A stretch of DNA of 64,000 nucleotides from Dictyophora rubrovolvata (Eukaryota > Basidiomycota > Agaricomycetes > Phallales > Phallaceae), in assembly GCA_029959195.1 (NCBI GenBank), contig CP114121.1, forward strand, positions 1,178,001-1,242,000. Reading direction: 5' to 3'. Positions 16,028-41,600 of the stretch are shown here, in pieces (positions within the stretch are counted from its first letter, which is position 1; each line of letters opens with the position of its first letter). Both the position numbers and the translations under genes were made by a program. The notes beneath the pieces are model-generated. The model had not been told where the DNA came from. It did not search any database and was given only the letters and a program-made list of their open reading frames with translations.

Positions 16028-17594
16028 TTACAATGGTTCTGTTATGAACTTTCCAATCTGTTCGCTTAAGAATTCATTATCCTTCTGACTTGCACCGCCT
16101 CCAGCCTGATGGCCCCAAACCGAGTCGATCACCACAAGCTCAGAATTTGGCAATAAGGCTATCTCATTTTTGCTATCTTCAGGCTACAAAATTGTAAGTT
16201 ATCAAAATCGCAAAATACAATACTCCCATCTTACCGGAAAGTATAGATCAGTTTTGCATGGCATAATAAGGCCCTTGACACTGATACTCTTCAACGTCTT
16301 CTCCAGGTCGCCACCATCACGAATCAAAGATATATCAGCCTTGGTCCACGTTTCAAATAGTGTCACAAGATCATTAGCGTCCCATTTAAGAAACCGAGCT
16401 TCCCAGTTGCCTCTCATGAAATCCTCCAGACTCTTGTATTTGCCGCCGAATTTATACTGGTGTTCTCTGAACCACTGCGAAATTGGAGTGTCAGCTTTCA
16501 ACATTCGAGGATCACGATATATCCGATAGACAAACCGTTTGGCCATATGCCCAGGCGCCTTTGAAGAAGTTAGATCTGCTCGAACAAGATCGGAAAAATA
16601 GACAAGGCATACAATATACCCTTCCAAATGCTCGGATGCCATTGGTGGGTGGAGAAACGTAATGTCCGAAATTGAAATCTCTAGATGCCAGTAGGGCTGC
16701 TTTAGGTCCTTCGATGAAACTGCGACGCCCGAGTAAATTTCACTATCAACCTGATAAGAATGAAGTTACCATTGATTGTGTGGGCTTGTTCTCGCAGATC
16801 CACAGATGACGATGAAGCTGAGTGTGATTCCTGCAGTCAGCTTGGGAGGGCAATTATTCAGTGATGTATGTATTCACCGCTCTACAAATTCCGGATACAT
16901 AGCGGCCCAATGATACGCCTTCGAACCATGGTTTAGCGAAGTCTTATGCCCAACAAAACCTAGACTATGTTGCGTACCTGCTGGCCTCCCATCGAGAAGC
17001 CAAGGACACAGTGCACCCTCTTCACCCCCAGCTTTTCGGTCAAGACGATATATTGTGCTCGTCTAAAAAGATAGATGAATCGGCATTACGTCAACATCTG
17101 TGATGAGTTGCGTACACATTATCTGCGTGGCTAACGTGGGGGAAGAAACTGCCATTAAACGGAGCTGGCTTGGTGTGCTTTAATCAAATACAATCTATCC
17201 CAAGCATATATTGGATACTAACTGTGTTAGATGGTGAGGAAGACTATGTAATATCATCGATATTCTGGCTTAAACAGGCCCGAGTTTGTTGACGCTCACC
17301 TCCCCATTGGAGAATAAGGCAAATGTAATGACGAAGTATTTTCGAGGATCTAAAACCTTGTTGTCTCCAACGAGATAATACTGGCTATCCAGCCTTCCCC
17401 CAAAGCAGGTCGGAAATCTACAAGATGGATAATTATTATCACAATAACAACGTGGAGTCCCAGAAGACATACACAATGCAAGGATTAGAAAGATCGCCAT
17501 GAGTCCGATAGGCAGTTATAGCCTCTGGAAGCGTTCCACCTGCGACCTCAAAGGATTCGTGTGTGTAATATTGCGTCTCTGGGACGTTCTGCAT
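16028..17594 (-). CDS. Homoserine O-acetyltransferase-like alpha/beta hydrolase
   Basis: Eleven exons: 17473-17594, 17300-17417, 17223-17243, 17116-17177, 16978-17062, 16878-16918, 16770-16817, 16613-16719, 16536-16558, 16235-16474 and 16028-16183; 340 residues. The nucleophile elbow GFSMGGQQ lies at residues 129-136, so Ser131 is the likely nucleophile. Other family blocks are FPTCFGGRLDSQYYLVG, RKYFVITFALFSNGE, AYHWAAMYPEFVER, AWAYGQTWFREHQYKFGGKY and the histidine block VWGHQAGGGA near residue 314. The protein is shorter than bona fide Met2 and belongs to the fungal MET2-like hydrolase subfamily, whose substrate is mostly unknown; acyl transfer to homoserine should not be assumed. Two very small exons (21 and 23 bases) are needed for conserved residues. 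Both ends are well supported. Confidence 0.86.
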
Positions 17595-18633: not shown

Positions 18634-20752
18634 ATGGAGAAAGATTCGTCAGATGCATCGTCCAAAATTATTGTACAATCTATACCACTAGACTCTCCTG
18701 CTTCGTCAAATGGTAGCCTCGGCGGTGACACATATACCTTGAACAAGTGGAGGTTTCCTGGATTAGTCGGTCTTATAATGTATAATTTAGCCGCTGGAAT
18801 GAGCTGGACTTGGTTTGGTTCCATTGCAACCCAAGGTAAGTACTCACTAGTACTCACTGTTCAAGTAGCTGCAGTCTAATCTAAACCTAAATCTTCAATA
18901 TCAAGTTACGGAAGACTTTCATGTATCAGTTTCTCAAGTGAACTGGCTGGGAAATATAATAAATCTCGTCTTTCTTCCTGCGTCACTTGCCGTTCCTTTT
19001 ATGTGCACTAAGTATGGTTTACGACGAAGCTGTTTCGGCGGCGCAGTTCTTCTTATTTTATCTGGTTGGATACGATATGCTGGAACCCCGAAATCTCTTA
19101 GTCCTGCTGGTGCATATGTCTTGTTGGTCATAGGACAAGTTAGCAAAGCTAAAAGCTCACATATAGTCTTTCAATACTAACACGTGCCATTAATAGATAT
19201 TGGCTGCCATGGCTCAGCCAATTTTCCTAGTGATTGGACCTCGATTTTCGGAAGCTTGGTTCGACTTCAATGGTCGAACTACAGCAACAATGGTTGTATC
19301 TGTCGGTATGAGGCGTCCTCATAACCTTGTCTATTTGAATTCATATTTTAGTACCTTGATTAGCCAATCCCGTGGGATCCGCTCTAGGACAGTTATTACC
19401 TTCTCTTTTAGGTACTACGAGACAATCGGTACGCTCATTTATCTGTCCATACAAAGTGTCAAATTTTGAAAACATTCTTCCAGATTCTGATCCTTGCCAT
19501 CATTTCAACCGCTGTATTTCCTGTTGGTTTTCTGATCCGTGATATACCTCCGACACCCCCCAGTACGTCTCTATGTAACTTTTATCTTCTCGGTACAGAT
19601 ACCGTTCCCGTTCAGCCTTTTCCGGAAGCATACCCCCGCCTCCTCCGATGTCGACTCTGAGATCTTTGGTAGGCTGCCCAACGGACGACGACAGGCGCTA
19701 TTCTCTACGAGCGAAGCTAGATTTTTATCTCCTAACACTTGCGTTTGGGATATTTTGTGGAGCGTTTGTGCTATTCTTCTACATACCTTATTCGCTTTGA
19801 CCTAAACAAGGAGATAGGATCAATGCTTTCTCACTATTAACAGCTCAAATATTCGAACCCTATGGATATTCTGCAACAGATTCGGGACTTTTTGTAAGTC
19901 GAATGGGTTGTTCTTATTATATTTAGAAAACGGGCTGACTCGTTTAGGGCGCTGTTATTATCCTGGTGAAGTCTTAAGTCTGGGTCCGGATGTTTTTAGT
20001 TCCTAATTTTCATCTTTGAGTAGGCCGGCCTTGCTGCTGCGATTGTTACAGCACCACTTTTTGATCGTGTTTTCACGACAAGAATAAACATTTCTGCAAG
20101 AACAATGGCGTTCTTTTTAGGTCTCTCCTGGTATGTTTGTCATTCCCATCGGAGGGGAAAAAGATCTCCTAACTAGCATTTGACATGGCAGGGTGGGTCT
20201 TATATGGGCTGGTTCGTCCGAAATCAACTTTTATATATATTACTACTTATCACCTCTAACAACAAAATGCAGTGCGTGCTCATAATTCCGGTGGCATATT
20301 TGCCGTCATGGCCGTCATCGGTATCTTGTCATTAGCATTGCTTCCTATCAGTCTTGAGCTGGCTTGTGAGCTTACTCAAGATGCCGAAGTTAGTGCTGCG
20401 ATAGTGTGGGATAAGTAAGTTCTTGTAGTTAGTATACATATTTGCGTGTTTTAATCTGATTTCCCTTTCTCAAGTGCTAATCTACTTACGGTGGTTTTTG
20501 TTTTGGGTGAGTATACTATCTATCTATCCTTTTTCCCTGCTAAGATCATCCAAAGCCGAGACGGCTCTAACCGATGGACATGAAGCATCCCCACCTCTGA
20601 ACATGCATCGCGCTCTGATATTGACAGGAGCTATGTGCTGTGCAGCTGGATGTATGATAGCCGTCTGCTTCCGTGGGCTCCCAGACTCACGCCGTGCCAT
20701 GGATAAAGCCAAAGAAAAAGATTCTAATTCTAATTCCATACCAGCCATTTAA
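18634..20752 (+). CDS. MFS transporter, FLVCR/SLC49-like
   Basis: Thirteen exons: 18634-18835, 18906-19138, 19197-19305, 19364-19428, 19484-19562, 19616-19769, 19818-19893, 19948-19965, 20024-20130, 20192-20211, 20273-20414, 20475-20506 and 20556-20752; 477 residues. About twelve hydrophobic segments. Diagnostic blocks of the FLVCR family are VNWLGNIINLVFLPASL, RFSEAWFDFNGRTTATM, ANPVGSALGQLLPSLL, EPYGYSATDSGLFGAVIIL and RAHNSGGIFAVM. Animal relatives move heme, choline or ethanolamine; the fungal substrate is unknown. The exon 6/7 junction is odd: reading straight on gives an in-frame TGA, and removing 48 bases restores the helix but needs a GC donor with a poor consensus. Exon 8 is 18 bases. 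The C-terminal tail is Lys/Asp-rich and cytosolic. Confidence 0.85.
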
Positions 20753-23506: not shown

Positions 23507-24122
23507 TTATGAACGGGGCTTTTCCTGTAATGACACGCGGTCAGATAGCGGAGAAGATCGATTTCACATTCACACCCACCTTCTTTTCCTTCCATAAAGC
23601 CAACAAACCAACGCCCGAAACTTTTACAACCTTGAAGCGCACGCCAGGAATATCACCCTTAGCCTTTCCTCGACGACCGAAACCAGAGATAAGAACCTCA
23701 TCGTTCTCGTCTAAGTAGTTCAAGCAACCATCGTTCTATCATAACAGAAAATGTGAGAAGCTTAAACTTGAACAAAGAATAAGGGTTTCGACGCACGGGT
23801 ACGAAGGCGGTGACTTTCTTTCCGTTCTTAATGAGTTGTACTCGGACGCATTTTCGAATGGCTGAGTTGGGTTGTTTGGCTTCAACGCCAACCTTCTCAA
23901 GGACTATCCCCTTGGCATGAGATGAACCACCAGTAGGCGATGTTTTATAAATGTTTCCAAGGGCTCGCTTTTTGTAGGCTTTGTCGGCCTGAGTAAATGA
24001 ACTTTTAAGTCATATTCATTCAGAGATAATAGATGAATACAGAAACTTACCCAGCGATTTTCTCGACGACTGATACGAAGTTTACGAGCTGCCTGAAGCC
24101 CACGGGGTTTGTTGGATCCCAT
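23507..24122 (-). CDS. RPS23: 40S ribosomal protein S23 (uS12)
   Basis: Four exons (24051-24122, 23797-23988, 23580-23735, 23507-23524), 145 residues, the usual length. The sequence follows eukaryotic uS12 closely: [65 protein letters not shown] and a C-terminus EKPRS. It sits in the decoding centre of the small subunit; the KQPNSA loop holds the proline hydroxylated in other eukaryotes (Pro62 in human). The last exon codes for only five residues and the stop; without it, the preceding frame reads on for twelve unrelated residues. The gene converges on CDS1, with 212 bases between stops. Very high confidence. Confidence 0.97.
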
Positions 24123-24341
24123 AACGATAAAGGTTGGTCTTGCTGTTTAAAGATACGTTTAGGAAGCGGACTCTGGAAATGTACCGTTACAGCTGCCCGG
24201 CACTTTGGCTGAGGGCGCCAATTTTTCGGCGCCTACCACTGACACGAACGTATGATTTGGAGACAGTTTAACTCTATTCAGGACTATTTAGGACAATTCA
24301 AAGTTATTTCGAAAATTCTACATTGATTTGAACCATTATGT

Positions 24342-27300
24342 TCAGGCGAAGACATCAGTAGCTAATCTTTCGTTCTGAATCTTCTCCCAAGCTTGATTAA
24401 CCACCTCGTCGCCCCAGGTCGGTTGCCTCAAACGAATTATCTTTAACAATGCTTCTTTAATTCCACTAGCAACTCCGGGAGAACCACAAGTGTAAAACTT
24501 TTGAAAATGATGAGCGATACAAATCAATAGATAAATGATCTGGGACAGAACTCATACCTTGGCACCCTTTTCGTACATCGCGGAAATTAGGTCCCGATCG
24601 TACCAAACACGGCTTCAATAAACATTCAGAAGCAGAGACTGGAAGTAATAGAATATACACTTACTCTTGAACATATTTATTTCCATCCGAGCGTTCCACG
24701 TCACGACTAAATGCTGGTTTGATTTGCAATATTCCCTGCTCCTGCCACTCCTTCAGGTTATCATTTGAATACAAGAAGTCATGACCAGGTGCTCGACAGC
24801 CATAAAACAAGACCATCTCTCCAACGTTTTGGCCCGAAGCCGCTTGAATTGCCCGCTCTTGCATGAAGGAGCGCATTGGAGCGATGCCCGAACCTGCCGC
24901 AAACATGACAATCGGTTTCGAGGATTCGGATGGAAGATGGAAGATAGCTGGTGAAGGCCGTATTCCAACATAAATCTTTTCACCGGGCTTGATAGCGGCG
25001 AGGTAATTAGAGGCCACTCCCAAATATCTGTTTGGTAACCCTGATGAAGCTGGTTTGTCAACAACAGAGACCGTGATCGTGACATGTTGGGGATTCCAGA
25101 GAGGGGAACTGGATATAGAATATTGACGGATACGCATCGTTGGCAACATTCCCAAGAAAGAAGCAAAAGGTATGGAGATATCTGGATAAAGCTCGAGAAT
25201 ATCGAGAATGCTCAGTTGTTTGTCGAATACACCCATCTTATAATTATCAAGGAGGGCCTCGAGAGCAGAGACTGTTTCTCCGGAAGCATATTTTTTCAGA
25301 TCTTGGATATGTTTTCGAGTAGCCGGTTGAGATATTTCGACGTAACCGGCCAAAACTTCAGAAACGCCGATGGGTTTACTTGTTGGCAGTGTTATTGGGA
25401 CAGACGAGTTGATTTGAATCTGATCGAGAGTAATTAAAATGTATATTTTCCTACGCTATGAAATATCACGAACCTCCTGATCAGGAATGAGATTGAAACG
25501 GCTTAGAACCCGCTGCACGTATTCCGCTGGATTCCTAGGCAATATCATAAGATAATCTCCTGCTTTGTAAACCGCGTCTTCAGGGAGTTCGATTTCTAAC
25601 ATCGAAAGAATTAATAGACTTCGCGAGAGGGAGAGAGAAAGTCACTAACCAATATGATACTTCGGCGATTCTCCAGATTTCGTGAGACGCTGATTGAGAA
25701 TGACTTTGCCGAGACCAGATGTATCTTCCTTTTGAAGAACTGCGGGCCTGGCATTATCTATAAAGTCGATAGAAAGAGAATTCAAATCTTCTTTTTCAGT
25801 GTGTACAACTTTTCCATAAACCTGTCAACAGATGTTATCGCCATGTAGAGAAAAGAATTTATTTTTCATACTCCACCCAAAGTAGTCCATAATTTGAGAA
25901 CGAAATTATCGAACTAAGTTACCCGTCGTTGATCAGTCATTAAGGAAGAGACCAATAGATCTATTTGTAGCTCACCGTTTCGAAGAAATCATCACTGCCA
26001 GAATCGGCTGCAGTTCTTTCAAGGATCCTCTCTGCTCCGTATTTTGCGAGCAGCTCGTCCACCAAGGTCGGTACTTTTTGATATGTATGGACCCAATCAT
26101 GATGTCCGCATCCAAAAACAGCATATTTGACTCCAGAAAACTCTGCGTCTTGACCACGTCTAAGAGCCTCCACAAAACGTCCAGCATTGTCCGCTGGTTC
26201 ACCTTCGTATGAGGCTGTGAAAATTATGACAGGTCCATCCGTTGGCATCCTCGATTCGATGGAATCCAATGTTATGATAGAAGGGCTAAATCCTGACGAA
26301 GAAATATAGTCAGACCGTGTAGGGGGCTTAGGACATGACTCGGGCTCGTACCCTTGATACCAGCCTGTGCTCCAACACGCTGAGCGAAGTCTTTGCAAGT
26401 TCCAGAGTTACTTCCGTAGGCTAAGTATAAAGGCACGCCGCTGGAGGGCTTAATTTCGTCCTTAGTTTCAGGAGCTCCAGACGTTTTCACCGCCTTCGGA
26501 AGAACAGGAGAGATAGTCTTCTTCCGGGGAATAGCGTGTATGAAGAAATTGTTAGGCTTGATGGTGAGAGTGGCTTTTAACTATACGGGATGAGCGTATG
26601 GAGCAATAAAATGCGCCTTGATTATCCTCACCTCTAGCTGGTAAAGCGGGTTGTGAAGTGTTATGTCGAACTTTTGGAAAATGGTTGCAACGGCTATAAG
26701 AGCCTCTTGCCACGCCAGGGGCCTAATGGGTTATCAACAAACGCATAGTAAGAAACCAGATAAAAATATCCAACCGTCCAATACAAGCACGGACACCACT
26801 TCCAAAGGGCTTCCACGCGTTTTTCTAAACGCGTGTGAAAATTGAATGCGAGACAAATATGGCTCAGAACGTACAGGTAACTTCTCAAACTTCTCGTCCA
26901 GCATTCTTTCTGGTTCAAATTCATCGGCCTTAGCAAAAAGCAAATTAGTAAAGAGTGTGGAGTATCAACGTAAAATAAACCAACGTTTTCACCATAAACC
27001 GCTGGATCGCGATGTAGACTAGGAAGAAGGACACTTATCGTCTCGTTCGGAGTTACTAGATATTGCTTGTCGCCCGATTGCAAGATTGTATCTTCAAATG
27101 CTTTCATAGAGATAGCAGTTACAGGAGGCGTAAGTCGAAGCACCTCTCGGAGAACAGCTACGTAGCAAGGGCAATTGGGATATCATTTTCGTATCGTAGC
27201 GAGGTTCCTACTTACCCGCAATGTACTTGAGTTTTCCGACGTGTTCCGGTCTAATTGGCTCATCTCCAAGAACTCTGTCTACTTCTTCCCGAACTTTAGC

Positions 27301-28749
27301 ATATGCTGTGGGATCATGGAGCAAGAAGTTGAGCTGTAAATGCATCGTTGACAATTATGTCATGGCAGTATACGGTAAGTGTAGACTTACGGTGAAGGAA
27401 AGCATTCCAGAAGTAGTCTCATGACCGGCTATAAGGAACGTTACCAAATTGGCAGCAATATTTTCATCAGGTAAACCCTGCCCAGTAACTGGATCCTTAG
27501 CAGTCAACATCAGCCCTAACAAATCATCAATTTCAACAGATCCTTCTTTGCGCTTTTTTATCACTGTGTCAGGGTTATCAATGATCAAGTATATGGGGTT
27601 ATATACGGTGCGGACTTACAATCGAGTGTGAAGTTTATCATCCAGTCGCGCTCGGATTCATAACGCGCATTGGCACTTCGATACAAGTACGATTGAACCA
27701 AGGAGGGTCGGCTAGCACGGTCGCCGGACTCTTTGAGAAAGCTATAGGATGTTGTTAGTTATTAAAAGTTACTCGACTGTTGGACTGACAAGGCCATAGA
27801 TTTGATGAAGGGCGGCGTTTCGATCTATAAAATCTCATTAGATCATTACTAGAACAGGAACCGAAGGGGCTTTACGGAATAAAAAGAATTCAAGCGATGA
27901 GACATAGTGGTTCTACAACGAGATTCAGCCAGATGAAAGCGAAATGAAATTAAGAAGCATACTCACAACGCGATAGTGTCAAATGCAAGTCGGGTAAAAT
28001 CTTCTGCTGGCTCAATTTGATATTCGGGTCCGAATCTAAATGAGATAAAGATACTTTTTCTTAAAAATTACAAAGCAATTATACCTCTGTGGGACATGAG
28101 TTTAAGCCTTTACATACAGGACAAGGTTACTTACCTCCCATTTGTCAATGAGTTGGGAGGCGATGTCAACCATGGAGTTGAACATTCCAAGGATTTTCAA
28201 AGGTCCGAACGCAGGCATTAGAATACGGTCTTACGCGGCATTTAAGTCGAGACGAATGACCAGAGACCAGAGATTGTACTTACGAGCTACGGCCCAATTA
28301 TTCTCTCCATGGAATGCTGTGAACAAACCATCTCCAGTGAGATTGCGAACTTCTTTCAAAGAACCTTCCACAGCTTTGTGGAAACGCTTCTGGTCGCAAA
28401 CCTGATCCGCGATTTCTTCGCTAGAAACCATAATAGATGTCCTGCCTGGAGAAGTAAATTCAACATCCATGGTATTCATCCACTAGAACTGACACCATTA
28501 CCTGGAAGGGATAACTGATAGATGGGGCCGTATTCTTTGGCAAGAAGCATGAGAGACCGAGGAGGCAGCTACAGTTGCTTAGTGAACATCCTCTGCTGCG
28601 AGCAATCATAAAGAACGGACGGACCTCTTTGTCAATAAGATGTGCATTGCCTATAAGAGGGATCTTGGGACTAGACGATGTCAGTTGAGAGTTGAGTAAC
28701 TGTGTGAGAGGCGTAGAAAAACGTACGGTTGAGGAATAGGAGAAATCAT
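24342..28749 (-). CDS. Self-sufficient P450-reductase fusion, CYP505 type
   Basis: Twenty-four exons, 1054 residues: 28727-28749, 28625-28670, 28502-28568, 28284-28445, 28135-28229, 28085-28086, 27967-28035, 27876-27912, 27790-27824, 27620-27741, 27391-27563, 27216-27333, 26985-27157, 26875-26928, 26775-26824, 26632-26722, 26352-26580, 25976-26292, 25872-25913, 25650-25821, 25474-25595, 24665-25419, 24558-24612, 24342-24497. Heme domain: I-helix AGHETTS, K-helix [11 protein letters not shown], heme loop [10 protein letters not shown] (Cys406). Then an FMN domain ([15 protein letters not shown]), an FAD site ([10 protein letters not shown]) and NADPH blocks ([24 protein letters not shown]). 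The order and length match fungal P450foxy/CYP505 and bacterial BM3, which hydroxylate fatty acids below the terminal carbon; substrate here is inferred. The protein needs no separate reductase. I see no N-terminal anchor, fitting a soluble enzyme. A 2-base exon supplies part of one Arg codon. Confidence 0.94.
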
Positions 28750-29261: not shown

Positions 29262-30422
29262 ATGGTATGTCAATAGCAATGCATTCTTAGTTCATACGTT
29301 TATTCATTTATTATTATTAGGCTCGCCGTTATGATAGTATGGTGGTTTTATTCAAGGTGTTTTCGCTACATTAAAACGTTTTCATAGGTCGCACCACTAT
29401 ATTTTCCCCTGAGGGTACGAGGAAAAGTTAGTTCTTCTTTTAGAGTTATATACTGACATTGCTATAGGCCGTTTGTATCAGAGTACGCGTTATTGCACAC
29501 TGATGATTTCCGTGTACTTATCTAAATCGAAGTTGAATATGCTATGGAGGCCATATCACATGCTGGTACCGTGCTCGGAATATTGGCTAAAGACGGGGTT
29601 GTTTTGGCGGCAGAAAAGAAAATTACAGGAAAACTTCTAGATCTATCGGGTGTGAAAGAAGGCGGATATGGTGGAAGCGGGGAAAAGATATACCTTTTAA
29701 ACTCGTAAATCACACCCCTTTCAGACTTTTCTAAGTAATTGCCAACACATATTTCAGAAATGTTATTGCTGGTGTTGCGGGTATCACAGCTGATGCCAAC
29801 TCACTGATCAATTTTGCGCGCAATGCTGCTCAAAGATATTTACTTACGTATAACGAGGATATACCAGTCGAACAACTAGCCCAGCGGTTATGCAACATGA
29901 AACAAGGTTATACTCAGTTTGGAGGTAATGCCAATCTCCTCTCGTCTGCCTGTTTATGAAAATATGATGATAGGTCTCCGTCCGTTCGGCGTATCATTGT
30001 TGTACGCTGGATATGATGTCCAATACAACTTCCAGCTATACCATTCGGATCCGTCAGGTAATTACTCTGGTTGGAAGGCCACTTGTATCGGTGCAAACAA
30101 TGGGACTGCGCAAAGTTTGCTAAAGCAGGAGTATAAAGACGATATAACAGTAGAAGAGGCGATTGCGCTCGCCATACGGGTCATGAGTAAGACCATGGAT
30201 AGCACAACCCTCAGCAGCGAAAAGCGTCAGTACAATTCCGTTCACGAGACGACCTTATCTAATGATTTATAAATTTATCAAGTTGAATTCGCTGTTTTGA
30301 CTCTCGATCAAAAGACTAAGCGACCACGACCGAAGGTATACAAACCTGCGGAGATTAATGCTTTACTGGATAAACATGGACTAGGAAAGAAAGAAGAAGA
30401 CGCGGAGATGAGAACATCTTAG
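29262..30422 (+). CDS. 20S proteasome subunit alpha-4 (PSMA4/Pre9)
   Basis: Eight exons: 29262-29264, 29321-29336, 29388-29414, 29468-29482, 29533-29704, 29758-29924, 29974-30225 and 30283-30422; 263 residues. The N-terminus reads [20 protein letters not shown] then [13 protein letters not shown], the proteasome alpha-type signature of the alpha-4 class (Pre9, also called alpha-3 in yeast numbering). Further blocks are [52 protein letters not shown], and a Lys/Glu C-terminus. The subunit forms part of the outer ring that gates the 20S core. The first four exons are 3, 16, 27 and 15 bases; exon 1 is the initiator codon alone. All are needed to recover conserved residues, and each has good GT and AG borders. 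The usual Gln-Val-Glu is Gln-Ile-Glu here. Confidence 0.95.
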
Positions 30423-38693: not shown

Positions 38694-41600
38694 ATGGCGG
38701 GCCCGTCGTCTGTGCTAGAGGCTCTTGTCGTCCTCCGTTTGGCGGAGCCGGGTTTATTGGTTTTATTAGCGTTTTCATTATGCTTTTTACGACCCTCTTC
38801 TAACGAAAACAATGATGAAGACCTTCCAATTGTACCGGTTATTATTGCACAGAAAGCTCCTCGGAGGGCTCTCATCCTGTCCTTTTTGTCTTTCCTTGCG
38901 TCTGCATACTTTTTAGATGGAGCCTTGATTGTAGCTCGTGCAGTCCTCAACGGCGTTTGGGAAAGCTCGTTTCCACAGTGGCGTTTTCTGGAAATTTCGG
39001 ATGTTCTTGGATTACTCGCTTTCGCCGGTCTAGCCGCTATTGGCACGTGGAAAGACGTCAATAGTGTTGAAGTCTGGACGCGCAGTCGAGTGAAGGTTTT
39101 CGCCATCTTCGCGTTGGTTGTGGACATCACACAGGTAGCCTTACTGGCCTGCATACTGAACTTCGCGAACGAGAAATCGGGACCGCTGGGTCGTATTAAT
39201 CTGCCGAATACGACACATTTCTTACTTGTGGTCTTGCGCGTTATATTTCTCTTAGTCCTTACGGTCGCGTTGTACTATCCGCGTGTATCATACCTCCCCG
39301 CTAGCCGCAACGTTGAAGAAGCTGACTCGTCCGCCAGTCTCCTTCAACCAGGCTCTTCCGCCCAATACGGTACATTCACTCCGCAGACTATCACGCGCTC
39401 CCATACCCCAGCACCCATTGATGGGACTCCATCTTCAGCAAACCCACAGGTGAATCCACCTAGACCCAGTGCACCTGGCCCCCTCAAGCCTAGTAAGGAA
39501 ACCAACGAGGACCCGTCTTGGAAAGAGTTGGCACAGCGCCTTAGAAAGCTGGCGCCCTATCTATGGCCCCAAAAGGACAAAGGACTTCAGTTCCTCGCCG
39601 TGAGTAATCTGCGTACAGTCGATTGGAGTAGCATGACAGTAATTTCTCTTAGGGAATCTGCATCCTGTTACTTGGCATTGGTAGAATTGTTAATGTTCTA
39701 CTACCTATTACTCTCGGAAAAATTGTCAGCGCTTTGGAAGACCATTCCGATCCGACATCGCCTAACCCTTTGTCGAGCTCAATATGGCCTCCTTTACTTC
39801 TCTATGTAGGCTTACGGTTCTTACAAAGTCCTGGCGGTATTTCGGCTCTACGGGATGTAAGTGGACTTTACTCGGTATGTAACAATACCTAAAATGAATT
39901 TCTAGACTTTATGGGCACCCGTCATGCAATATTCTGATAGAGGTACGTTGAATGGATTGGCGTCTCAATTGAATTCAAATCGCTTTCAGAAATGTCCCAA
40001 CTTTCATTTGATCACCTTCTAAACCTTTCTCTTGCTTTTCATACGAGACGTAAAACCGGAGAAGTCCTTCGCATACTCGATCGCGGCGCCGCCATCAATC
40101 ATATCCTGGAGGTCTGTCTTCTTATTTATGAATCTTGTGAATTATTGCTTATTGATCCTTTGTAGTTGTTGCTGTTTAACATTGGTCCGATATTTTTGGA
40201 TATCATTGTAGCCTTGGGATTCTTCTTTTATGTCTTTGGATGGCCATTGGCTATCGTCATTTCGGTCGTAATGGTAGCATATGGTATGATTGATTACTCA
40301 CCCGTAACGAGTATATGTACTGATATTGAACTTTAGTATATGCTAGCGTAAGTAATTAGTTTTTTTATTTATTTGTATAGATGGCAATATTTTTTATGAC
40401 AGGTTATATTGACCAGATGGAGAACGAAGTTACGACGCCGTATGAATGACCGCGACGTGGTACGTGAAAATGACATTGCTTTGCATTTGTTAATACTTGA
40501 TTTCTGCGCAGGTAACTCGAGGCATTCACACAGATTGTCTTCTCAATTACGAAACCGTCAAGTACTTCAACGGCGAACAACATGAAGGCCGTCGTTATCA
40601 AGACGCCATCCGCCAATACCAGGCTCTCGAATACCGCGTCATGGGTTTGTCTTGAAGTTTTGTTTTCAGATTATGCTTGGCAGATTGATTTGTGACATTA
40701 GCTTCGTTGAATTTGTTGAACTTGGTTCAAAATTTGATCTTCGTATGTCTTTTTGGGCCGTCTTTTATGCGATACTGACTCGTTTTGTCATAGTCTCTTG
40801 GCGTTCTTGTTGGTAGTTTACTTGTGGCTTCTCAAGTTTTGAACGGCCAACTGGATTCCAATGGTCGCCCCATGACCTCCAGTAGCTTCGTTGTGTTCAT
40901 AACCTATCTCGCTCAAGTGAGTTATGTAAAGCGGCTTGTAAACTTTCATTGATTCATTGGTAACTTTCCATAGCTCTATGGTCCTTTAAACAGTCTTGGA
41001 TACATCTATCGTTCCATCAACCAAAACCTCATAGACACCGAACGGCTTATGAAGTTGCTCGACGAGCCACCGGAAGTCAAAGACAAACCAGACGCTGTAG
41101 ACTTCAATATTGTGGATGGTGAAATTGAGTTCGGTAGGTTTTATGCAGAAATAGGTCACTTCATTTTATTAACCCCTTAATTAGATAATGTTAACTTCTC
41201 ATATGACGGTCGTGTTAAAGCTTTGAACGGTGTTTCATTCAAAGTTCCGAAAGGATCTTCTGTAGCACTCGTTGGAGAAAGTGGGAGCGGGAAGAGTACA
41301 ATCCTGAGGCTTTTATACCGTTTTTACGATCTTAAGGAGGGTGAAGGTCGAATTCTCATTGAGGGCCGGGATATTCGTGAAGTGACTCAACAATCATTAC
41401 GAAGGGCAATCGGTGTGGTTCCGCAAGACAGTGTTTTGTTCAACGCAAGCATTGCATATAACATCGGGTATAAATGCATCCGTACTTTTTTGATATGGCA
41501 TGTCATTCATAATTAATTCGACAGATACGGAAAGTTCGGGGCTTCTCCAGATGAAATCCAAGCAGCTGCTCAGGCTGCTCAGATGCATGAACGTGTAATG

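Follow-up and report, generated by a model that had tools for sequence, protein, structure and literature searches.

The question raised by this locus is whether a gene is read through an exon of only two bases. The window, a stretch of 64,000 nucleotides of the Dictyophora rubrovolvata genome, carries on its minus strand a gene in which a P450 is fused to its reductase, and within the P450 half a gap of 99 nt separates the coding segments for DKWE and FGPEY. The features concerned, numbered from the first base of the window, are the following:

24342..28749, minus strand: P450-reductase fusion gene, predicted with 24 exons and 1054 residues plus stop (from the gene-finder path, translation and Pfam)
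28135..28229, minus strand: upstream exon, ending ...QLIDKWE on the full codon GAG (phase 0)
28087..28134, minus strand: predicted first intron, 48 nt, GTAAGT...CCCACAG (donor at the 97.5th and acceptor at the 37.2th percentile)
28085..28086, minus strand: putative two-base exon AG, bases 1-2 of the AGA codon of Arg132
28036..28084, minus strand: predicted second intron, 49 nt, GTATAA...CATTTAG (donor at the 12.6th and acceptor at the 93.8th percentile)
27967..28035, minus strand: downstream exon, beginning A TTC GGA

In the predicted protein the Pfam domains p450, Flavodoxin_1, FAD_binding_1 and NAD_binding_1 occur in that order, all above the cut-off, which is the domain order of CYP505 proteins (P450, then flavodoxin, FAD and NAD in one protein). 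Membership of CYP505 is defined by more than 40% identity to named CYP505 proteins; among PDB entries the P450 half matches 7p6l best (460.1 bits), a bifunctional P450/NADPH-P450 reductase which we take to be a CYP505A. At least one copy of the fusion gene is present in this genome (28.2 Mb, 11 contigs), and the remaining P450 matches are pieces of 25-51% identity, these counts likewise being lower bounds. The best model of the gene has 23 introns and, apart from the 99-nt gap, it is open over 1054 codons with no second break. The gene lying just downstream on the same strand (23541-24342, minus strand), whose product is presumably ribosomal protein S23-like, was merged with the P450 gene when the gene finder was run over the whole stretch.

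The gap consists of a 48-nt GT...AG intron, the dinucleotide AG and a 49-nt GT...AG intron. Since the upstream exon ends in phase 0 and the downstream exon opens with A TTC GGA, the frame is kept only if two bases are supplied. The sequence-only reading of this DNA had placed an AG at 28085-28086 between exons 28135-28229 and 27967-28035, which it found to be two bases short, and both the coordinates and the bases proved correct. Its description of the introns of 48 and 49 nt as normal in size is also borne out: the median length is 56 nt among the 435 introns predicted in 220 kb of this genome, only 9 of which reach 90 nt or more, and the 14 other introns of the P450 half measure 48-58 nt. 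Judged from the DNA, the gene very probably carries a two-nucleotide exon between two GT-AG introns of normal size, each of which would be recognised by intron definition, with removal in two successive steps.

The identity of the residue in the gap was examined in related proteins. Prokaryote genomes were searched with a four-sequence alignment, which gave 312 relatives, an earlier scan of them that used the protein of the window as sole query having confirmed no relative; the best 80 of the 312, all bacterial loci and none discarded for stops, were aligned together with three PDB chains. Prokaryotic relatives bear on the residue and not on introns. The residue at the gap column is arginine in all 83 relatives, and 82 of 84 proteins, that of the window included, have a spacing of 13 residues from KW to D-[FM]-[TI]-[RG]-L, the other two falling outside the search pattern. 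Homology breaks off and resumes exactly at the outer splice sites of the gap, and sites at least as strong as these are scarce (12 for the donor and 44 for the acceptor among 227,920 positions). Two features expected of an ultra-short exon are found at the site: the bases are demanded by the frame (two bases short) and by a conserved residue (Arg in 83/83), and canonical GT-AG introns of normal length lie on both sides, one of them with a weak donor. The basis of the case for the predicted exon is that the arginine is invariant, that the spacing is fixed and that the outer sites stand at the exact break in homology.

Alternative ways of joining the flanking exons were enumerated between fixed anchors, allowing one or two introns of 40-160 nt and retaining the solutions that are in frame and free of stops. 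Nineteen such solutions were obtained, among which the two-base exon ranks first by splice score (2.96), a single 58-nt intron second (1.27) and a single 82-nt intron third (0.26). Six products were also scored against a family profile built from the 83 relatives, the window protein being excluded. The microexon product scored best (488.7 bits); the others were the product of a 15-nt exon in which RYNCF replaces RFGPEYQIE (476.4 bits), that of the 82-nt intron with VSNLVL in place of R (476.3 bits, 12.4 below the microexon product), that of a 64-nt intron, which carries an insert (471.8 bits), that of the 58-nt intron with 13 extra residues (469.9 bits, 18.8 below) and that of a 124-nt intron, which is without RFGPEYQIE (465.4 bits). 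Both the 82-nt and the 58-nt solutions put extra residues into an ungapped block of the alignment.

The 82-nt intron (28036..28117, minus strand; donor GTATGT) keeps the frame, meets no stop and has a donor that scores above the inner donor of the two-base solution (5.17 against 3.03). We nevertheless regard it as highly improbable, as it loses an arginine invariant in 83 of 83 relatives, alters the spacing shared by 82 of 84 proteins, yields the poorer profile score given above and gives no account of the very strong donor, GTAAGT, that lies where homology breaks off. The 58-nt intron (28060..28117, minus strand), also in frame and stop-free and of ideal length, keeps the arginine and adds the 13 residues VSNLVLKSIFISF ahead of RFGPEY; its profile score is the lower of the two, and it would make both strong outer sites coincidences, so that it is extremely improbable.

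A gene finder that uses no protein data was trained on 220 kb of this genome: the window itself, an adjacent stretch of 50 kb, and 32 loci surrounding P450 matches. Since a few of these loci overlap, some introns may be counted twice. The starting splice-site matrices were taken from 14 hand-read introns of this fusion gene, the two disputed introns being excluded, and later rounds of training left out introns adjoining exons shorter than 20 nt. The program was rebuilt with a cost per intron and a choice of strand, and the prior training, in which the number of introns had run from 685 to 1591 to 642, was dropped; by the end of its fifth round the rebuilt version was based on 50 gene models and 435 introns. 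It places the two-nucleotide exon, and forbidding that exon costs 3.04 nats, the 82-nt intron then being preferred as the second choice. Its prior on exon length is too kind to two-nucleotide exons, and its errors include a 3-nt exon in a proteasome gene, where homology indicates 15 nt, and a 0-nt exon elsewhere. The choice made by the gene finder is therefore support for the predicted exon and not proof.

The proteasome gene lies beside the fusion gene on the plus strand and encodes an alpha subunit, its best PDB matches being alpha type-3/4 subunits. Its 15-nt exon (29468-29482, plus strand) codes for RLYQ plus part of the codon on either side and sits between introns of 53 and 50 nt, and the joined protein aligns to solved subunits with no gap. 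The gene finder also placed exons of 7, 10 and 11 nt in three other genes of the window (16811-16817, minus strand; 20121-20130, plus strand; 40337-40347, plus strand); these are predictions of a program that errs at such sizes.

A further rival is a frameshift. A single 99-nt intron (28134-28036), whether the gene was broken recently or the assembly is in error, would use the outer sites, which form the strongest pair, and its splice score of 1.17 is only 1.8 below that of the two-intron solution; introns of 90 nt or more do exist (the 9 of 435 noted above). The sequence-only reading was right that this intron is out of frame and unusual in length, but it is not the sole rival, since the 82-nt and 58-nt introns, which that reading does not mention, also keep the frame. 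Chance was assessed in a simulation of 200,000 gaps of 99 nt, each keeping the real first 8 and last 14 bases, with cut-offs that were chosen after seeing the case: the pattern AG-NN-GT with both introns of at least 44 nt arose in 1.7% of the simulated gaps, the pattern with an Arg codon in 0.12%, and an Arg codon together with inner sites that both equal or exceed the observed strength in 0.008%, whereas a frame-restoring exon of 2, 5, 8, 11 or 14 nt with a summed inner-site score at least as high as observed arose in 0.65%. A broken gene or a faulty assembly would seldom be expected to contain by accident an AG exon that restores the arginine between sites this good (0.008%), or indeed an equally good frame-restoring exon of 2-14 nt (0.65%), and no other break is found across the 1054 codons. 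A frameshift is thus considered very unlikely. There is also a trap for annotation here: without the two-nucleotide exon, the gene would be called frameshifted.

One further reading predicts an identical mRNA. The AG of the microexon is the same dinucleotide as the AG that ends the second intron, so that a single intron ending two bases earlier, a non-canonical 97-nt GT...TT intron with the downstream exon starting at the AG of the usual acceptor (...CATTT/AGATTC), likewise yields GAG AGA TTC; cDNA alone, including the RT-PCR suggested in the sequence-only reading, cannot tell the two apart. A read aligner may therefore report this mRNA as a single 97-nt intron. Such an intron would leave the arrangement CCCACAG/AG/GTATAA unexplained and demands an unusual length, and we know of no class of 3' splice site like it; the probability that it accounts for the locus is accordingly put very low.

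Four other explanations were considered and rejected. Spliceosomal twin introns (stwintrons) need nothing to be kept between the introns, and removal of all 99 nt leads to a stop at codon 139. For recursive splicing at a zero-nucleotide exon the candidate is CCCACAGAG/GT, with an acceptor score of -0.27, the use of which loses the frame; in either of these two schemes the two bases would be lost as well. An origin of one intron by duplication of the other was not supported, the local similarity between them being no better than that of shuffled letters (p 0.32), and against an origin from a dispersed intron element, the 401-nt region found no match in this genome other than its own position.

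The gene structure containing the putative two-base exon is thus the best supported of those compared. From the sequence, the frame, the constraint on residue and spacing and the site scores, which are observed, we infer that transcripts are actually spliced through it. The two retained bases would complete the AGA codon of Arg132, each of the two short introns being recognised by intron definition. The sequence-only reading took intron definition to be implied by the size of the exon; it is the likely mechanism, though not a special implication here, as it is the usual mode for short fungal introns. The same reading described the AG as flanked by a good acceptor and a good donor, which does not hold: by percentile the outer donor and acceptor (97.5th and 93.8th) exceed the inner pair, of which the acceptor is middling (37.2th) and the donor weak (12.6th), GTATAA opening only 1 of the 435 predicted introns. 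Branch-like motifs in introns 1 and 2 stand at the 68th and 53rd percentile; in intron 2 the best such motif is just 5 nt away from the intron end, where it is hardly usable, and the next is poor.

The two introns would be removed successively rather than together, because the acceptor of intron 1 and the donor of intron 2, two bases apart, could hardly be occupied at the same time. Either may go first. The three bases ahead of the second donor are GAG with or without intron 1, so that removal of intron 1 neither creates nor destroys that donor. Length, more than the strength of the sites, would disfavour the skip of 99 nt, given the rarity of introns of 90 nt or more (9/435). Errors are predicted to end translation early, with stops at codon 139 when the exon is skipped, at codon 142 when intron 1 or both introns are kept and at codon 148 when intron 2 is kept; skipping the exon or retaining either intron thus gives a stop at most 17 codons past the junction.

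Because the inner sites are the weaker pair, the cell could alternate between inclusion of the exon and the 99-nt skip. The two-nucleotide exon might on this basis act as a built-in splicing checkpoint, inclusion of AG giving the active enzyme and the skip a stop at codon 139 and mRNA decay, perhaps kept across related fungi; the level of the enzyme would then be set through the efficiency of the two successive intron-definition events. This we consider an unlikely, speculative extension of the preferred gene structure. Confirmation of the two-base exon by transcripts would add a two-nucleotide spliceosomal exon in a fungus to the confirmed one-nucleotide cases and would provide a clean test of the removal of short introns where an acceptor and the following donor overlap.

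Small introns and tiny exons also occur in P450 genes of another fungus. Those of Phanerochaete chrysosporium have microexons down to 6 bp (2 residues), the smallest described there, and its CYP505 genes have 17-22 introns, against 23 in the best model of the window gene (PMC1184071). Two adjacent introns removed in consecutive reactions also recall the stwintrons of ascomycetes (PMC6616335); in a stwintron, however, one of the pair splits a splice element of its partner and no base from between the two reaches the mRNA, whereas here two bases would stay. From Arabidopsis, Drosophila and humans, exons of 2-5 bp are cited in PMC12940212. The plant genes APC11 and VPS55 contain one-nucleotide exons that are experimentally confirmed and conserved across land plants, and like the exon proposed here these ultra-short exons require a two-step joining (PMC4674806, PMC8831610). 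For Arabidopsis APC11 the authors propose intron definition combined with recursive splicing (PMC4674806), and an acceptor and a next donor two bases apart would similarly call for two successive intron-definition events.

The closest parallel is the one-nucleotide exon of CYP621A, for which Nelson and Syed 2026 give 20 Fusarium orthologues (24 genes in the discussion) and 18 SRA reads (PMC12940212). They suggest that a base was lost from the border of an exon and that a cryptic exon then came into use (PMC12940212). In both cases the gene is a fungal P450 gene, ordinary GT-AG introns flank the exon, and what pointed to the exon was a conserved motif broken by a gap in the frame, together with an over-long intron. 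The CYP621A exon differs in having one base instead of two and in lying in another family and another motif (the Gly of PKG), and it is backed by orthologues and reads (PMC12940212), whereas the exon described here is predicted from genome sequence. Among the titles and opening parts of abstracts listed in searches of open-licence PMC text, none names a two-nucleotide exon in a fungus or in CYP505. Since plants and a different fungal P450 already provide confirmed one-nucleotide exons, the putative two-base exon of the Dictyophora rubrovolvata fusion gene is probably a new case of a known rarity.
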